A stretch of 35,602 nt of DNA from Verrucomicrobiota bacterium (GCA_021209225.1 JAJOIW010000041.1:1-35602); one strand, 5' to 3'; numbered from the stretch's first letter, positions 24,185 through 35,602 are shown. Notes: a model not told the origin generated them from the sequence alone. Program-made: numbers and translations.

Positions 24185-24757
24185 TTATTTATTCCGGATG
24201 TCGGGGATGGCTGCTTCATCCAGCTGGATTCTGATTTTTTCCAGTCCATATCGGTACAGCGAGGTGACGGAATTCTGACTGTATCCCAGAACTTCAGCAA
24301 TTTGCTGGAATGTCAGATGTCCCCATATTTTGAGAACGATGACTTCCCGATACCTGGTGTCTATACTGTCCAAAGCTTTGACTAAATGCTCCATGGATTC
24401 TCTTCGAGCCGGATCCGCATCAAACCATTCACTTGAAATGGAATGGACATCCTCAATACTCACCCCTTCACGACGCTGCCTTCGACAAAACGATCGGTAT
24501 CGATCAATGGCACCACGTCGAATCCGAATTATCGCCGCTTTGACCCGATCCTCATCCTGAAGCTGTCCTTTTACCCAGAATTTCCAGACATGAACCAAGG
24601 CATCCTGAAGAACGTCCTCCGCTTCTGATTCCAGCCGGCACTGATGCCTCGCATAAAGCAGAAGGGAGGCACTGTGGTCTTCCAGCCACTTCTCCCAGTC
24701 GTGCAACCCTGATGCCCGGTCGGTTTTCATCTCAGAAGGATGTCCACTCACACCCAA
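24185..24757 (-). CDS. ECF-type RNA polymerase sigma factor
   Basis: Region 2 LESEAEDVLQDALVHVWKF; region 4 LDSIDTRYREVIVLKIWGHLTFQQIAEVLGYSQNSVTSLYRYGLEKIR. Confidence 0.88.
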   Translation of the reverse strand: MGVSGHPSEMKTDRASGLHDWEKWLEDHSASLLLYARHQCRLESEAEDVLQDALVHVWKFWVKGQLQDEDRVKAAIIRIRRGAIDRYRSFCRRQRREGVSIEDVHSISSEWFDADPARRESMEHLVKALDSIDTRYREVIVLKIWGHLTFQQIAEVLGYSQNSVTSLYRYGLEKIRIQLDEAAIPDIRNK

Positions 24758-24829
24758 TCTGCGTCACACACTCCCTCGTTTGAGAAAATTTCTGAAAAAT
24801 TCTCCAACCAGAGGATTCAGAAAGCACAC

Positions 24830-26403
24830 TTATGGAGTCAATCGGGATTCTTTCCTCGGAAACAATGGGATCGGATCGCCCACTTGATGCCCTCCCTGTA
24901 ATTGCCCCCATTTCAAAGCTCCAAACTGGGGATAGGGTTCCACCATAGCCAGCTGCTGGCGGATTTTTTCCGACGTGTTGGGCAGAACTGGTGCAATCAG
25001 AGCGCCTATCACCCGAACGGATTCCACCGTATTATAAAGAATCTCCTCCAACCGGACCGCCTGGCCAGCATCCTTGGCCAACTTGAATGGCGCTGTCTGG
25101 TCGATATACTGGTTCACCCGTGTCACAAACCCCCAGATTGTCTGCAGCGCCGCCTGAAATTTTCAGGCTTTGATAGTTTTCCGCGTGCGACTGAGATTGC
25201 GTGCTCCGCATCTGCTTTCAAATCATCATGCACCGCTGAAAGCACTCCACCCCGATATCTCCTGATCATGGACAAAGAACGGTTCACCAGGTTGCCCAAT
25301 CCATTGGCCAACTCACCGGAATACCTCGCCTCAAATCCATTGTCCGTCCAATTGCCATCCGGACCAAGATCGAGTTCACGTATGCAATAAAAGCGAAATG
25401 CGTCCAGACCCCATTCTTCAATGACCTTCACCGGGTCGACAATATTGCCTGTTGTCTTGCTGATTTTCTGCCCCTCCTTCTGCCACCATCCATGAACTGT
25501 GATTTGCCGGGGCATCGGCAATCCCATAGCTTTTAACATGATCGGCCAGTAAACCGCATGAAACTTGATGATGTCCTTGCCAACCACATGGTGATCCGCA
25601 GGCCATAACTCCACTCCAGGCTTCCCGGAACAATCCAACCCCAACGCGCCACAAACAACAGGATCCCCCAGAACCGCAGGAATCGTCACATAGTTCGAAA
25701 GCGCATCAAACCAGACATAAGTCACGTAATCCCCATCAAATGGCAGGGGAATCCCCCAGTTCAATCGGCTCAGAGGCCGTGTGATACACAGATCCTCCAG
25801 TTCCTGGCTCCTCAGAAATCCCAATACCTCATTCCGCCGGTATTCAGGGTAGATAAAGTCCGGGTGCGCCTCAATATGCTCAATAAGCCATTCCTGATGC
25901 CTCCCCAGCCGGAAATAATGGTTGGTTTCAGTCAACTCGACCACTGGCGCAAATATCTCATCAAACTCTCCTGATTCGTTCCTGTCCCTGTCCGTTAAAA
26001 ATGTTTCCTGCCGGGTGGAGTAATATCCCCGATACTCCGAGGTATAAAAATGCCCCTCAGCCTGGAGTTTGTTCAGAATGGCCTGCACCACCTGTTTGTG
26101 ACGGGACTCCGAGGTCCGTACAAAATCGTCGTGACTTAACTCCAGCCTCTCCGTGAATGCCCGCCAATCCACCGCCAGCCTGTCACAATATTCCTGCGGA
26201 TCCAGCCCATGATCCTCCGCTGCCTGCTGCACCTTTTGCCCATGCTCGTCCAGTCCCGTGAGAAAAAATGCTTCCAATCCCTCCATTTTCCGACTCCGGA
26301 CCAACACATCCGTCCAGATCTTTTCATAGGCATGTCCTAAATGCGGTTGCCCATTCACATAATCTATCGCCGTTGTCGCGTAAAATTTTTTGCCCATCCG
26401 CAC
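24830..26403 (-). CDS. metG: Methionyl-tRNA synthetase; frame broken by an apparent 1-nt deletion in the AAATTTT run 25157-25163
   Basis: KKFYATTAIDYVNGQPHLGHAYEKIWTDVLVRSRKMEG..., KISKTTGNIVDP (KMSKS equivalent); after adding one base the frame runs SKPE(K/N)FQAALQTIWGFVTRVNQYIDQTAPFKLAKD. Confidence 0.92.
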
Positions 26404-27506: not shown

Positions 27507-29965
27507 GTGAATATGTTTCAGATGAAGAAACTGGATAAATCTGTAACTCAGGCGTTGTGGATTGCCATAGCTACTCTGGTGATTCTGGGTGGACTCACAT
27601 ATCTTCAACTGCAGCAAACCGGTTTTCGCCCCATGGAAAGGCTTGAAAACCTTACATTTGACTGGCGTGTCAAGTCAGCACCATTGAATCCAGACCTGGT
27701 TTCAACCAATCTCGCCATGATTTTCCTCGATGATCACACCGCTGAAGTTCTTGGAACCGGGGTTCTGGGAAGTCATCGAAACTACGGTCAATATCGCACC
27801 GGATTACCAGTTCCCCGTTATATCCATGGAGATTTCCTTGATCTCATTCAAAATGCTGAACCGGGTCTCATCTGTTATGATATTCTATTTCCCGATCGTC
27901 GTGATGACCATCCCAGTTTCTCTCTGCCAGGCGGAGGCATTATCGCTTCAGATGAAATTTTCGCAAATGATCTGCTCACTGCAGGCAATGTCGTCCTGGC
28001 CATGACCGATGGACTGCTTCCCGATATTCTTTTCCGCGATGCCTGCTACCAGATTGGACACATTTCTGCCGAACCTGACTTTGATGGAATCCTTCGACGC
28101 ATTAAACCCATCCAGAAAGCGAAAGTTTGGCATGAGATCTTTGAAATCATGATCGCTGAAGGCGCCGGGCTCCCCACCGAACAGGCAATCGTGGAAAAAT
28201 CCCGCATCTACTGGCAGGAAAAATCCCCGGATGGATCAACTCCCCAGATCCTATTTGAAATTGAACTCGATGATCAGGGTCGATTTGATGTTCTCAACCC
28301 CAAATTCGATTATGACGGCCAAAGCGATGAATTCGTCGTCAATTCCTTCGGAGGCATCCGATACCATAAACCATTCGAAGAAAAATCCTTCTGGCACATG
28401 GGATTCCTCATGGCAGCAGCCCAAATCAATCTGCAACTGGATAAAGCGGAATTCATGCCCGATTCCCACCAAATCCATATTCCCGACTCACAAGGCAATA
28501 TACTGAAAATCCCTCTGGATGCGGAAAACAATATGGTCATCAATTGGAAACTTCGCATCGATAGCCCACAAATCCCAAAAGCTTCTCTCTCAGATTTTTC
28601 GATTCCACCATGAACAGCCCAGGGTTCTTTGAAATGTGGAAAAATAAAAGCATTCTGTTGGGCTCCAACGCGAGCGGCAACAACCTGCGCGACATCGCCT
28701 CAACACCAGTCAGCCCGAAAGATTTCGCCATGATGACCCATCTGAATATCGCCAATAGCCTCATCAACAGATCTTTCATCCACTCCACTTCAAACCCGGC
28801 AACACTTTGCATTACAGCTTTCGCCATCCTGATCGCCTCAATATTGTCTCTCCAGCTCAAAGGACCATGGGACTCCATTCTTCTGCTGATCATTGCCTCG
28901 ATCTACACAGCCTTTGCCTTTATTTCCTACTCCCGCTGGGGCTTATGGATACCTGTCGCCATGCCAGTCGTGGGAGGCCTCGGACTAACTCACATCCTCA
29001 ATGTCGCTAACCGAGCCGCTCAGGAACAAAAGGAAAAAAGCCGCATCCGCAGAATCTTCGGCCAAACAGTTTCTCCCAATGTCGTCAATGTTTTGCTCAA
29101 AGAAGATTCCAGCCAGATCCGCGGCTCATCGGAAATCATCACCACCATCTTTTCAGATATCCGGGGATTCACTGACATGACAGATTCTCTCGAATCCCGA
29201 TCCGTTTCACACGCGGTATCTCTGGGATTAACCGGATCACAAGTGGATGAATTCGTCGAACTCCAGACCAGATCCATGCTCGAAGCCGTCAATGAACACC
29301 TCTCCATACAAGCCGAATCCATCAAAATTTATAACGGCACTCTCGATAAATACATCGGAGATTGTGTCATGGCTTTCTGGGGCGCCCCAACTGCAGACCC
29401 TCTCCATGCTCTCCATTGTGTCTACGCCACCGTTGCATCCCACAAAGCTATGCTCCAAATCAATATCCGCCGCGAATCTCACAATAAAAAACTCCTCAGT
29501 GAAAATCCTCAACGACTGAAAAACGGACTTCTTCCCATCCCTCTCAAACCCATGCTGGATATGGGTGCCGGCATCAATTCAGGAAAGGCTTTGGTCGGAC
29601 TCATCGGATCCACACGCCATATCTCCAATTACACCGTCTTCGGTCGCACTGTAAACCTCGCAGCTCGATTGGAGGGCACATCAGGGCGCGGTCGTATCCG
29701 CATCGGCGAATCCACTCGAAACGACCTCATCAAATCAAACCCGGATTTTAATCAGTGGCTCAAATCCCATCCCCCAACCCTACTCAAAGGTTCAGTGACC
29801 CCATCCCCAGCTATGAAGTGCTCTGGTGGAATATACCCCACTCAGTTGTCCCCATACCTCCAATTCATGAGGATACTTCCTCAAATCAATTCACCAATAC
29901 ATAATCCAATCCGGAACCCTTACCCCCACCTCAAAGTCGAATCCTTTATAAACAGATTCCTCTGA
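27507..29965 (+). CDS. CHASE2-domain class III adenylate/guanylate cyclase; frame broken by an apparent 1-nt deletion at T5 28595-28599
   Basis: CHASE2 N-terminal part (RPMERLENLTFDWRVKSAPLNPDLVSTNLAMIFLDDHT...), then FFEMWKNKSILLGSNASGNNLRDIASTPVSP in the next frame, three TM helices, cyclase motifs FSDIRGFT, LDKYIGDCVMAFWGAP, NYTVFGRTVNLAARLEG. Confidence 0.9.
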
Positions 29966-30043: not shown

Positions 30044-31465
30044 TCACCAAGGGAGTGAAAATGTTTTTATGTTCGACATGAATTTCATGGCCTCAATGAC
30101 GCCTTCCTTGATTCCCAATCCAGAGTCTTTAATGCCTCCAAATGGACTGGACTCAATCCGGTATCCAGGCACCTCATTTATATTACATGTCCCCACCCGA
30201 AGTTTCTTGACTGCATAGATCGCCTTATTGAGATCCCGCGTGACAATCCCGGACGAAAGTCCGTAAGCGGTCGAATTTGTTAATTGAATCGCATCCTCTA
30301 AATCATCAACCACCATAATGGGTGCCAATGGTCCAAATGATTCCTTCACCACCATCTCGCAATCACGCGGCACATCCACAATGATCGTGGGTTCCATCAG
30401 CGCCCCAAGACGCTTCCCACCCAGGAGCACCCGCGCACCTGAGGCCACTGCTGCTATAACCCGTTCTTCCAACACCTTCGCCGCAGCCTCGTCAATCACT
30501 GTCCCTACCACAGTTTCTGGATCTCTGGGGTTACCACTCCGATATGACCTCGCCATTTCCACAAACTTTCCCACAAACTCATCCAAAATGCCTCGCTCAA
30601 CCAATATCCGCTTCACCGCAGTACACCGTTGTCCAGAATTCCGGAAACTTCCTTCACATGCCAGCTTCACTGCCAACTGCATATCCGCATCCGACAACAC
30701 AATCAATGGATCATTCCCACCAAGCTCCAGGACAACCTTCTTGTAACCAGCTTCCCTCGCTATGCGTTTGCCTACTTTTTCACTGCCGGTGAACGACACC
30801 ATTTCAACCAGTGGATGCCGAACCAATCCCTCAGCTATCACCGAATCAACCCCCGTCAATACAGACAACATCCACCCGGGTAATCCACAAGAATAAAGCA
30901 ACTCAACAAAACGTATCGCAGTAAGCGGTGTCTTTAAACTGGGCTTTAACACAGTCGGAGCACCCGCCGCAATGGCAGGGGCCACCTTGTGCGCAACCTG
31001 ATTCAATGGATGATTGAACGGAGTAATCGAAGCAATGCACTGCAACGGTTCGCGGAGTGTGAATATCTTACGCGCCTTCCCATGCGGAGTTAAATCACAA
31101 CTGAATATCTGACCATCATCCTTCAGCGCTTCCATGGCAGCAAACTGAAGAACATCGCTGGCCCTCCCAACCTCATACCGGCTTTCTCTCACGCATAAGC
31201 CAGACTCGCTGGTGATTAATGCTGAAAATTCCTCCGCTCGCCGGCTCAACTCCTCTTTGGCCCGATTCAATATCTCAAACCGCTGAAACCTGGTCAAAAC
31301 TTCACGCCCCCTCAAATGCGTCGCCTCAACCGCCCGATCCAATTCCTTTTCTCCCAATGACGGCACTCGACCAACAATCTCTCCAGTATACGGATCATTG
31401 ACATCAATCCAATCCGATGATTCCACCGCCTCACCAGCGATATATACACAATACTTCTTCATCAA
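30044..31465 (-). CDS. phnY: Phosphonoacetaldehyde dehydrogenase-type aldehyde dehydrogenase
   Basis: ALDH motifs ITPFNHPLNQVAHKVAPAIAAG, VSFTGSEKVGKRIA, LELGGNDPLIVL, GSFRNSGQRCTAVKR; overlaps phnA by 4 nt (ATGA). Confidence 0.86.
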   Translation of the reverse strand: MMKKYCVYIAGEAVESSDWIDVNDPYTGEIVGRVPSLGEKELDRAVEATHLRGREVLTRFQRFEILNRAKEELSRRAEEFSALITSESGLCVRESRYEVGRASDVLQFAAMEALKDDGQIFSCDLTPHGKARKIFTLREPLQCIASITPFNHPLNQVAHKVAPAIAAGAPTVLKPSLKTPLTAIRFVELLYSCGLPGWMLSVLTGVDSVIAEGLVRHPLVEMVSFTGSEKVGKRIAREAGYKKVVLELGGNDPLIVLSDADMQLAVKLACEGSFRNSGQRCTAVKRILVERGILDEFVGKFVEMARSYRSGNPRDPETVVGTVIDEAAAKVLEERVIAAVASGARVLLGGKRLGALMEPTIIVDVPRDCEMVVKESFGPLAPIMVVDDLEDAIQLTNSTAYGLSSGIVTRDLNKAIYAVKKLRVGTCNINEVPGYRIESSPFGGIKDSGLGIKEGVIEAMKFMSNIKTFSLPW

Positions 31466-32721
31466 TTCTGCACTCCATTCAACGTGAAATCGAATATGTC
31501 AAAGTTACGGATATCTCCCATCGATCGTTGCCTATACTTCTCATTCAGTGGCCTGGACACAAAAAAAGGAACCATCTCTTCATAACGCCCACCATGTGAA
31601 CGCAGCGGAGCTTCAAGCTGGCTCAAGTCATGATGCCCCGGCGTCCGCCCCAACACAACATTCCTCCCAGACATCACTATGATATCTCCAGTCCGGTCTG
31701 CAGGAAGCTCCAGCTTGCTCACAGCTATGGATCGCGGCAATACTTCCGTCACCCCATCCAGTGACCAGATTGCTTGCATCACTTCTTCCTTTCGATCCTC
31801 ATATTTTTCTGGAAGATGCACCACCCCAAAAGATCCCAAGGCTCCATGATGCTTCACATACGGATCCGTTATCGGAAGAATAACACTGAACCCATCACCA
31901 AATTTTTCTGTCAGAAATGTTTCCAGATATATGACATGAGGACTCCCATCTTCATGAGTTTTCCCATTCATTCCATGATCAGCTGTCGCTCCAACTATCA
32001 CTCCCATCGCAATCAGCTTTCCTATCTCTGCATCCAGTTCCTCATAAAATCGAATCGACTCCTCCGCATCCGGTGCATAGGTATGCTGCATGAAATCTGT
32101 CAGGGATAAGTAAAGAAAATCCGCCAATCCTGCCGCAACCAGGGAGACGCCACTCTTTAATACATACACGCTGGCATCTCCACTGTATATCGGCGGCGTC
32201 TTCCCTACCAATTCCTCCACATTTGCTATTCCATTCTTCTCAATCGTCGCTTCACCCGCTTTCTCACTCGAAAAGGAAATCCCACTCATGCCAATGGACA
32301 GTAATTCCAACAACTTGTTTTTCGCTGTCACAAACGCCACTTTCCGTCCCGCCAATGAAGCCGCTGCCAGTATCGTCCCAGCCCTCAAATACTTCGAGGA
32401 ATTCATCATCACTTCCTCCCCATTCTCAGGATTAAGAAAGAAATTGCCAGGTAACCCGTGAACACATGGCGCCGCGCCAGTCACTATCGAGGCATTATTC
32501 ACATTCGTGAACGATGGCAAGGCTCCTCGCGCCATTCCCCGGAATCCTTCGCGGGCCACTCTCGCCAGATGCGGCATCCGCCCCATCGATATACCCACAT
32601 CAATATATTCGTCCGCGCAGCCGTCAATGCATATCACCGCTATGGGCGACGCTGGCAGTCGATATTCCCGTCCATTCACCTCAATAGACCCAGTTGCGCA
32701 CGTCTTGCTTTGTTCCAACAC
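31462..32721 (-). CDS. phnA: Phosphonoacetate hydrolase (alkaline phosphatase superfamily)
   Basis: VICIDGCADEYID, GALPSFTNVNNASIVTGAAPCVHGLPGNFF, LSLTDFMQHTYAPDAEESIRFYEELD, ATADHGMNGKT. Confidence 0.9.
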   Translation of the reverse strand: MLEQSKTCATGSIEVNGREYRLPASPIAVICIDGCADEYIDVGISMGRMPHLARVAREGFRGMARGALPSFTNVNNASIVTGAAPCVHGLPGNFFLNPENGEEVMMNSSKYLRAGTILAAASLAGRKVAFVTAKNKLLELLSIGMSGISFSSEKAGEATIEKNGIANVEELVGKTPPIYSGDASVYVLKSGVSLVAAGLADFLYLSLTDFMQHTYAPDAEESIRFYEELDAEIGKLIAMGVIVGATADHGMNGKTHEDGSPHVIYLETFLTEKFGDGFSVILPITDPYVKHHGALGSFGVVHLPEKYEDRKEEVMQAIWSLDGVTEVLPRSIAVSKLELPADRTGDIIVMSGRNVVLGRTPGHHDLSQLEAPLRSHGGRYEEMVPFFVSRPLNEKYRQRSMGDIRNFDIFDFTLNGVQN

Positions 32722-32769
32722 TATTTTTTATTAAAAAGGTTTGATTTGTGTAAACAGGTCGAATGCCTC

Positions 32770-33912
32770 TTAGAGACTTACCCCCATCTGGTCCAATGCC
32801 CGCTTGATAGCCTGAACCAGTTGTCGAATGTCATGTTCAAAAATACGACCGATGTTTCCAATACGAAAACACTCAGTCTCAGTTAACTTCCCAGGGTATA
32901 TGATCATTCCTTGATCACTTAATAATCTATAAAATTTCTGGAATTCAAATCGACTGTCACCAGGAAAATAAAAAGCTGTGATGATTGGACTCTGATACTT
33001 GCTCTCCAAATATGGACGGAATCCAATCCGCTCCATTTCTTCCATCAGGACAGCATGGTTCCTGCGGTATCGTCCCTCCCGGCCCGCGAGTCCACCTTCC
33101 GCTTCAAACTCCAATAAAGCCTGATGAAACGCCAGCAGGGTGTGGGTCGGTGGTGTATACCGAAACTGATTCTTCTGATCAAAATATTCCATTTGATGCA
33201 GAAGGTCCAGACTCAGGCTTCGCTGATGCCCACGATTCGCCTCCAATAAAGCCCGGCGCAGGATCACATACGTGAATCCAGGAACTCCTTCCAGACATTT
33301 ATTCGGAGAGGAAATCAAAAAATCAATTCCCCCACGCTGAAAGTGAATTGGCAATGCCCCAAATGAACTCATCGCGTCCACTATATACTGCCGGCCATTC
33401 CGCTGAACAACTTCACCAATCTCATGTATCGGATTCAGGATGCCAGTCGTGGTTTCGCAATGCACAACCGCCACATGGGTAATCCCAGGATCCGCTTGTA
33501 AACGATTCTCCACCTCTTCCACTGTTGGAGGCTCATTTTCGGGAGTTCTCAGCACATCGTGATCTATACGCATCAGCTTGAGCATGGCGGACATCCGCTC
33601 ACCATAGGCTCCATTCGAGATCACAAGAACTTTCCCGGACATCGGAACACAGGAAGCAAAAACCGACTCCACTCCGAATGTTCCACTGCCCTGAAGTAAC
33701 ACAACTTCATAACCATCGGTGTGACGATCCACACCAGCTATCGCTAATAACCGATCCCGAATCGAATTGACAACAACGTGGAACTCATAATGCCACGACC
33801 CGGCATCTCGAAGCATCGCCTGTTTCACACTCAGACTGGTGGTCAATGGACCAGGGGTGAACAAAGTCTTATCGCGGTGCCAACATATCTCGTATGGTTC
33901 ATTCATCTTCAT
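32770..33912 (-). CDS. phnW: 2-aminoethylphosphonate--pyruvate transaminase
   Basis: LFTPGPLTTSLSVKQAMLRDAGSWHYEF, LQGSGTFGVESVFASCV, HCETTTGILNPI, VDAMSSFGALPIHF, SSPNKCLEGVPGFTYVI (PLP lysine). Confidence 0.93.
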   Translation of the reverse strand: MKMNEPYEICWHRDKTLFTPGPLTTSLSVKQAMLRDAGSWHYEFHVVVNSIRDRLLAIAGVDRHTDGYEVVLLQGSGTFGVESVFASCVPMSGKVLVISNGAYGERMSAMLKLMRIDHDVLRTPENEPPTVEEVENRLQADPGITHVAVVHCETTTGILNPIHEIGEVVQRNGRQYIVDAMSSFGALPIHFQRGGIDFLISSPNKCLEGVPGFTYVILRRALLEANRGHQRSLSLDLLHQMEYFDQKNQFRYTPPTHTLLAFHQALLEFEAEGGLAGREGRYRRNHAVLMEEMERIGFRPYLESKYQSPIITAFYFPGDSRFEFQKFYRLLSDQGMIIYPGKLTETECFRIGNIGRIFEHDIRQLVQAIKRALDQMGVSL

Positions 33913-34011
33913 TTATCAGACCGTCCACACCATCCCCGAAAACGTGACTCGACTCAATAAAATCTTTGCAAGGCAAACGGAGCATAAATCAGAGCGATCC
34001 ACCAAATCCCA

Positions 34012-35399
34012 TCATCTTTTCTCCCTTTTTCCATATCTCAAAAAATACACCAGAGCCCAACCTAGCATAATCAGAGAAACCCAACCAACCGAAACAGAAA
34101 ACAATTTGAAAAACTCCAAATGCGATGAACCGGCAAATAGTCGATCCTTAATCAACAGCAGTATCACCGACCCAGTATATCCAATGGAGTCCGCCAGATA
34201 TATGGCAAATACCGCAGTTCCGGAAAATCTCGTGAATGCTATGATCCGATCAAATAACATGGAATTAAATGGAACATAAATTAAATATGATCCCAATCCA
34301 GTCATCACCATAAACTGATATGGTGTCACAGAACCATTCGTTATAAATATGGAACCTGGCAACAAAAACAAACATCCTATCCCCATTACCAGAAAGGCAG
34401 CAGTCAATCCGCGCCGATTGTCCCGGATGATATTCAGCCCCGCCATCACTGCCATCACAATAAACGCCACCATGGTTTCTGACTTGGAGATCACCCCCCT
34501 GTCCTCCACCTTTAAATCCTCCAATATATTCACTTGAAAGTTATCACGGTAATCACGATATGCCGTGGCTATAAAATACACAAAACACAATAGCCCCAAA
34601 CCCAATGCAAATTCCCGGATAAATCGCCACCGATCGCCGGCATACATCTGAGACCGCTTCGATCGTTCATCCTCATCCTGGGCAGTTGGCCCAGGAAGCC
34701 GCGATAATAAATAAACAGAAAATAAGAATAGAGGCAGAAAATGCAGACCGACTATGAACGGCATCCACGACTCACTCACACTCCCGAGCCAGCTCCCAAT
34801 CCAATCTCCAGCAACAGGTATTTGACTCCATTGCCGGGCAATTCCCCCATCCATGAGGCTGACACCAAAATCCTTCACAATCCCACTGCTCATGATAAAT
34901 GAACAGCTGAGCCCTGCTAATAAAATCTCAGATGTCCGCCGCCCCTCCAGATACCAGACTACCAACCCCCACACCATACCCAATGAAGGCCCGTTGAAAA
35001 ATATCGGAACCACCTTCCACGAACCAGGAACCACTCCATAAAGTATAAGGATGTCTCTGCAATAAGTATCAACCCAACCATCACCCATGCTCGTCTCCCG
35101 GGAGATACTTCAGAACATACCTTCATTCCTATATACTTTGAAATCGCATACCCAAAGATCTGACTTATCACAAGCGCACTCTTCAATGTGATTTCACCTG
35201 GTAAAAAACCAAATATTTCCCCATCAAACTTCGCCGATGAAAATGGCTTCCGAAACGCATACATACAAAAATATGTGCAAAAGGCAGCCGCCGTCGCATA
35301 AAAAACAAATACCGCCTGAGGCACTCGCATCAACATCCGATTCAATATCCCTCCTCCGCTTTCGTGCGCACTTTGTCCATTTCTCATAATATAATCCAT
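34012..35399 (-). CDS. DUF5690-type multi-TM protein (MFS-like), candidate phosphonate-associated transporter; frame broken by an apparent 1-nt deletion near 35042-35050
   Basis: QAVFVFYATAAAFCTYFCMYAFRKPFSSAKFDG...LKSALVISQIFGYAISKYIGMKVCSEVSPGRRAWVMVGLILIAETS then in the next frame ILYGVVPGSWKVVPIFFNGPSLGMVWGLVVWYLEGRRTSEILLAGL...; upstream of phnW on the same strand. The N-terminal start is uncertain. Confidence 0.72.
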
Positions 35400-35602
35400 T
35401 TTTTTCCAACTAACCTTACCGTCGTCAGGATGCCCCCCAAGCGGAACACACAAATACTTAACCCAATCCTATACTCAATCCGCAAGCAAAGAAATCCTTC
35501 CACCCATTTCATCCCAACACAACCCCGCCTACCTCCCCCTTTGCCTGATCGTCCTCATTCTCAAGGCTCCGATAGGACCTGAATGAGTGTGCAAGCCATT
35601 TT

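Follow-up and report, generated by a model that had tools for sequence, protein, structure and literature searches.

A DUF5690 membrane protein as a candidate aminophosphonate importer beside phnW, phnA and phnY in a Verrucomicrobiota bacterium

By which route does 2-aminoethylphosphonate (AEP), the commonest natural phosphonate according to the literature, reach the enzymes that degrade it when the only transport-like gene beside them encodes a domain of unknown function? This question is raised by one end of contig C25 of a Verrucomicrobiota genome, which in its entirety (35602 bp) forms the stretch of DNA analysed here, referred to as the window. On its minus strand lie, in this order, a gene for a multi-TM membrane protein of the DUF5690 family (PF18943; 34012..35399), phnW for 2-aminoethylphosphonate:pyruvate transaminase (32770..33912), phnA for phosphonoacetate hydrolase (31462..32721), and phnY for phosphonoacetaldehyde dehydrogenase (30044..31465). 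The spacing is operon-like, with 99 nt between the DUF5690 gene and phnW, 48 nt between phnW and phnA, and an overlap of 4 nt between phnA and phnY.

The sequence-only reading of this DNA had proposed such a cluster, and profile matches bear it out. PhnW scores 475.8 bits against TIGR02326 (cut-off 400.8) and 504.7 against NF010006, and PhnA scores 488.8 bits against TIGR02335 (cut-off 407.6). TIGR03250 is the best family for PhnY, with a score marginally below its strict NCBIfam cut-off (632.5 versus 635.7 bits). Judged by these NCBIfam matches the three enzymes are named without doubt, and PhnW and PhnA above cut-off together with the best family of PhnY, all in one cluster, identify a PhnWAY pathway. 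The DUF5690 protein was recognized from genome matches in two frames and from alignment to intact relatives. Its N-terminal part lies in the frame of an ORF at 35453..34959, with an ATG at 35399, and scores 52.7 bits against PF18943; its C-terminal part lies in an ORF at 35088..34012 and scores 313 bits, so that both parts exceed the curated cut-off of 25 bits. The gene had been described as lying about 100 nt upstream of phnW on the same strand. The distance stands; the reading frame, however, is split by a one-base shift at about 35010-35050.

Neighbourhoods in other genomes link this family to phosphonate catabolism well beyond the window. GTDB genome contigs scanned with a DUF5690 alignment yielded at least 589 relatives, from which 80 loci were retained; neighbours were counted in the 68 with at least 10 kb of total flank. 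The catabolic set comprised PhnX, PhnW, PhnA, PhnY, Phn-HD, and PbfA, with bit-score thresholds for local genes taken from gaps in the scores and an NCBIfam check on representatives and some borderline cases (the PhnW of L076 and L140 lies outside that check). Under strict thresholds, 35 of the 68 loci carry a phosphonate-catabolism gene. They occur in Verrucomicrobiota, Planctomycetota, Pseudomonadota, Ignavibacteriota, and Poribacteria, and are scattered throughout the DUF5690 tree, not confined to one clade. The placement of L076, L128, L137, and L140 in this tree was disregarded because these rows represent an incorrect reading frame, with 0 TM segments and long branches; the neighbourhood counts are independent of it. 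The window sequence belongs to a 15-row group with good support, in which four members are phosphonate-linked. Of 38 local cases, 14 have their nearest phosphonate gene on the same strand at a distance of no more than 300 bp. Clustering of neighbouring ORFs recovered TIGR03364 FAD oxidoreductases, PhnX (TIGR01422), PhnA, PhnY, PhnW, and the Phn-HD oxygenase (TIGR03276), along with a PhnR-type GntR regulator, a TIGR03339-type LysR regulator, PbfA (NF049939), and TonB receptors.

Several of these neighbourhoods hold further genes. In Pseudoalteromonas and Thalassotalea (L112, L129, L142, L143, and L144), a TonB receptor lies about 150 bp or less from a DUF5690-phnX pair, hinting at a matched uptake step in the outer membrane. 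At L138 (4033-18311), and also at L070, L083, L086, and L094, genes for a Rieske oxygenase, a DAO oxidoreductase, and a dimethylglycine-dehydrogenase-like protein (DAO+GCV_T) come after phnA-phnY-phnW-DUF5690. The Rieske oxygenase resembles the glycine betaine monooxygenase GbcA, with a score far below the cut-off, and the module looks suited to demethylating N-methylated (betaine-like) aminoethylphosphonates for PhnW. In three phosphonate clusters (L019:4049-5935, L020:6614-8578, and L022:5759-7648), DUF5690 adjoins large Laminin_G/Metallophos proteins whose N-termini look export-like and which may release phosphonates from polymers ahead of uptake.

The association is also seen at the level of whole genomes. 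Across 388 Verrucomicrobiota genomes, DUF5690 was found in 11 and PhnA above its cut-off in 12, with both present in seven (Fisher 1e-9, or 2e-8 when the genome of the window is left aside). PhnX and PhnW were each found in 17. Again leaving that genome aside, at least one of PhnA, PhnX, and PhnW is present in seven of 10 genomes with DUF5690 and in 22 of the 377 others (p 7e-7). Phosphonate genes are missing from the neighbourhood of about half the DUF5690 loci, and PhnW exceeds its cut-off elsewhere in 16 of 34 genomes with such an unlinked copy, compared with 17 of 388 in the Verrucomicrobiota background; the p value of 3e-11 is indicative, as the background is one phylum and the 34 genomes span several. 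The phn clusters of these genomes are of PhnWAY or PhnWX type, often with PbfA, and mostly lack an obvious membrane importer, which fits a distant DUF5690 serving importer-less phn clusters. The remaining 18 have no PhnW above the cut-off, and part of the family may have another role.

Plasmid records give a compact version of the same arrangement. DUF5690 occurs in only four records of the plasmid collection, and in all four it is followed by phnX, either immediately or with a single FAD oxidoreductase gene in between. Novosphingobium sp. EMRT-2 has DUF5690, a TIGR03364 oxidoreductase, and phnX. Three Bacteroidales have an operon of DUF5690, phnX, and phnW with no further genes; these are annotated in Parabacteroides distasonis and Bacteroides finegoldii, and in the unannotated record of Phocaeicola massiliensis phnX and phnW were identified by HMM. 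The NCBI label of the protein is only ‘DUF5690 family protein’. Co-occurrence with phnW, phnA, and phnY, the check suggested by the sequence-only reading, is thus clearly positive in Verrucomicrobiota, in neighbourhoods across phyla, in genomes with unlinked copies, and in gut Bacteroidales.

Which transporter serves these clusters can be approached by looking at what DUF5690 stands in for. A scan for motifs and TM segments found no phosphonate ABC importer within 8 kb at the 38 local DUF5690-phn loci. In Verrucomicrobiota, all nine phnA clusters that lack DUF5690 contain a GlpT-like MFS gene, whereas among the four DUF5690-phnA clusters it is present in one (L020) and absent from three. A PDB profile search places this MFS group with OPA-like carriers (GlpT 1pw4, 1.9e-70). 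Genetic work by Murphy et al. established AepP, a GlpT-related MFS protein, as an AEP permease, and AepP is reported beside PhnWAY and PhnWX in Verrucomicrobia (PMC8316502). In phnA clusters DUF5690 thus stands where a known type of AEP permease is otherwise found.

The predicted structure is consistent with a carrier of this kind. An AlphaFold2 model of the relative L079, built with a 68-sequence alignment (pLDDT 94.3, pTM 0.91), has a predicted 12-helix MFS fold and gave 321 PDB matches at E<=0.001, the top ones being MFS carriers. The best Foldseek matches are to the human glucose-6-phosphate transporter SLC37A4/G6PT (E 5e-8), with GlpT 1pw4 further down; a sequence-profile search of DUF5690 against the PDB found no relative. 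Alignment by hhalign to an OPA-like MFS set is colinear, with a probability of 23% in local and 84% in global mode; a control with single sequences failed to separate other multi-TM proteins, with low scores even for known OPA-like proteins, and was not counted as support. Fold and global profile alignment support the suggested structural relation to the organophosphate:phosphate antiporters. Two arginines, R23 (motif YAFRKPF) and R253 (motif TAYRDFRDN; L079 numbering), are invariant in all 68 sequences and are kept in the window copy and in two Bacteroidales sequences that were checked; R256 is Lys in the latter two. At the level of profile alignment, hhalign puts R23 and R253 on the GlpT-type phosphate-binding arginines, which we take to be R45 and R269.

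Taken with the co-occurrence, linkage, and slot replacement, this fold strongly supports the earlier proposal that DUF5690 is an AEP or phosphonate permease; from these observations we infer transport itself, its substrate, direction, and coupling. We consider it likely that the cluster is a self-contained AEP pathway in which DUF5690 is an MFS-fold importer of AEP or a closely related aminophosphonate. The protein would act as a 12-helix inner-membrane carrier that brings this substrate into the cytoplasm, with the phosphonate group most likely held between the two membrane-buried arginines, R23 and R253, much as phosphate is in GlpT/UhpT-type carriers. The carrier would rock between two states, and uptake would be driven either by exchange with phosphate or by symport with H+ or Na+. 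PhnW would then remove the amino group of AEP to give phosphonoacetaldehyde, PhnY would oxidize this to phosphonoacetate, and PhnA would hydrolyze its C-P bond, yielding acetate and phosphate.

Different models of what DUF5690 does in these clusters need to be weighed. In one of them, the cargo is a related phosphonate or a phosphate ester rather than AEP, such as 1-hydroxy-AEP, N-methylated AEP, or the products of a neighbouring secreted phosphoesterase. DUF5690 is paired with PbfA, a 1-hydroxy-AEP ammonia-lyase, at L015, L104, and L131, and with TIGR03364 FAD oxidases at some loci; the Rieske/dimethylglycine-dehydrogenase-like module at L138 and the secreted Laminin_G/Metallophos proteins of L019, L020, and L022 would also suit such cargo. 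We nevertheless judge this unlikely, given that the minimal gene sets recurring most often beside DUF5690 encode PhnX/PhnW or PhnWAY, which have AEP as their substrate, and that the Bacteroidales operon consists of DUF5690, phnX, and phnW only. Loci without phosphonate genes show other company. DUF5690 stands beside secreted purple-acid-phosphatase-like proteins at L021 and L023, and further loci adjoin methyltransferases or TrkA-like genes. At L084, L085, and L087 (Planctomycetota and Verrucomicrobiota), it directly follows a SAM-methyltransferase-like gene with no phosphonate genes nearby, and a different function is possible there. A wider role of the family in organophosphorus uptake is also possible.

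The frame shift leads to a second model, in which the window copy is a genuine pseudogene and phnDE genes elsewhere in the source genome serve the cluster in its place; the relative L024 is also broken, by two TAA codons. The metG gene of the window is likewise split by a frame shift, as are phnD and phnL on another contig of the genome (C173), which argues that the indels are a property of the assembly, and the key DUF5690 residues are kept on either side of the shift. Because metG, phnD, and phnL are split too, the break in DUF5690 is read as probably an assembly indel, and a pseudogene seems to us quite improbable. The source assembly is 57.7% complete in 248 contigs, and about 200 nt lie between the start of the DUF5690 gene and the end of the contig. 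Within the window, metG and possibly a CHASE2/cyclase pair (24185-26403 and 27507-29965) are frame-shifted, a sign of assembly indel errors.

The phnDE genes also bear on a third model, in which DUF5690 exports phosphate (or an intermediate), giving relief when AEP used as a nitrogen source piles up phosphate, while AEP itself is taken up in some other way, for instance by phnDE. OPA-type carriers do handle phosphate, and export of phosphate during growth on AEP is reported for Stappia stellulata (PMC8316502). Against this, most DUF5690-phn loci, and the phn clusters of genomes with unlinked copies, have no other importer, and DUF5690 swaps places with AepP-like MFS genes; we regard a pure exporter as very unlikely. 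Exchange of incoming phosphonate for outgoing phosphate would unite the importer and exporter readings. The idea that DUF5690 and the phn genes are chance neighbours is rejected by the co-occurrence statistics and by the spread over phyla.

The uptake genes of the source genome qualify the importer reading without displacing it. Contig C173 (L148:3628-11822) carries phnE and phnD with the C-P lyase genes phnG, phnH, phnK, phnL, and phnM and a hexapeptide transferase (TIGR03308); phnI and phnJ would be expected in between, where profiles gave no confirmation. It had been noted that the window contains no ABC phosphonate importer or LysR regulator. This is true of the window, but it weighs little, as the window is a whole contig and phnDE lies on C173. 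Because the cluster runs to the contig edge, the absence of either gene means little, and the missing regulator was rejected as informative. A dedicated AEP transporter elsewhere in the genome had been named as evidence against a DUF5690 permease; phnDE partly answers that description, but beside C-P lyase genes it is a broad C-P lyase importer and not a dedicated AEP system, and the permease proposal is not overturned. With these genes present, DUF5690 would not be the sole phosphonate route of its genome.

We give about even chances to a broader proposal, that DUF5690 represents a founding family of aminophosphonate importers made of a single component, differs in sequence from AepP and from every ABC system, possibly works by phosphonate/phosphate exchange, and is the main route of AEP uptake in many Bacteroidota, Verrucomicrobiota, Planctomycetota, and sphingomonad/caulobacter lineages. 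A literature search on DUF5690 and PF18943 in open-licence articles found no paper naming the family or assigning it a function. What would be new is the transporter family; the pathway that it would serve is already known. If correct, the proposal would let a widespread family account for substrate uptake in phosphonate degraders that lack known importers, gut Bacteroidales included. Transporters are used as markers of AEP consumers, and environmental surveys limited to phnD, phnS, aepX, and aepP would change. A domain of unknown function is given a specific, directly testable role.

Comparison with known systems places DUF5690 closest to AepP of Pseudomonas putida BIRD-1 (PMC8316502). Like AepP, DUF5690 would be a single-gene MFS-type carrier beside phnWAY or phnWX; the two take the same place in Verrucomicrobiota phosphonate operons, and in the profile alignment the arginines of DUF5690 fall on the phosphate-binding pair. 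They differ in sequence: AepP and GlpT share 28% identity by BLAST, whereas DUF5690 forms its own Pfam family, matches neither MFS profiles nor PDB chains by sequence, and connects to the GlpT group through fold and profile alignment only. With the OPA carriers GlpT, UhpT, and SLC37/G6PT it shares the predicted MFS fold, SLC37A4/G6PT being the top PDB matches, a colinear NGL..GM.W motif, and, as placed by profile alignment, the two arginines, although identity in the structural match is 14-18% and the TM-score about 0.6. The ABC importers PhnCDE, PhnSTUV, AepXVW, and AepSTU work with the same catabolic genes elsewhere among bacteria, but they are driven by ATP and consist of several proteins, one of them a binding protein, while DUF5690 would be a single carrier. 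The PhnWAY pathway of Sinorhizobium meliloti 1021 has the same three enzymes in one operon; there the operon includes a Na+ symporter and an ABC transporter (PMC10574752), whereas here the candidate for transport is DUF5690.
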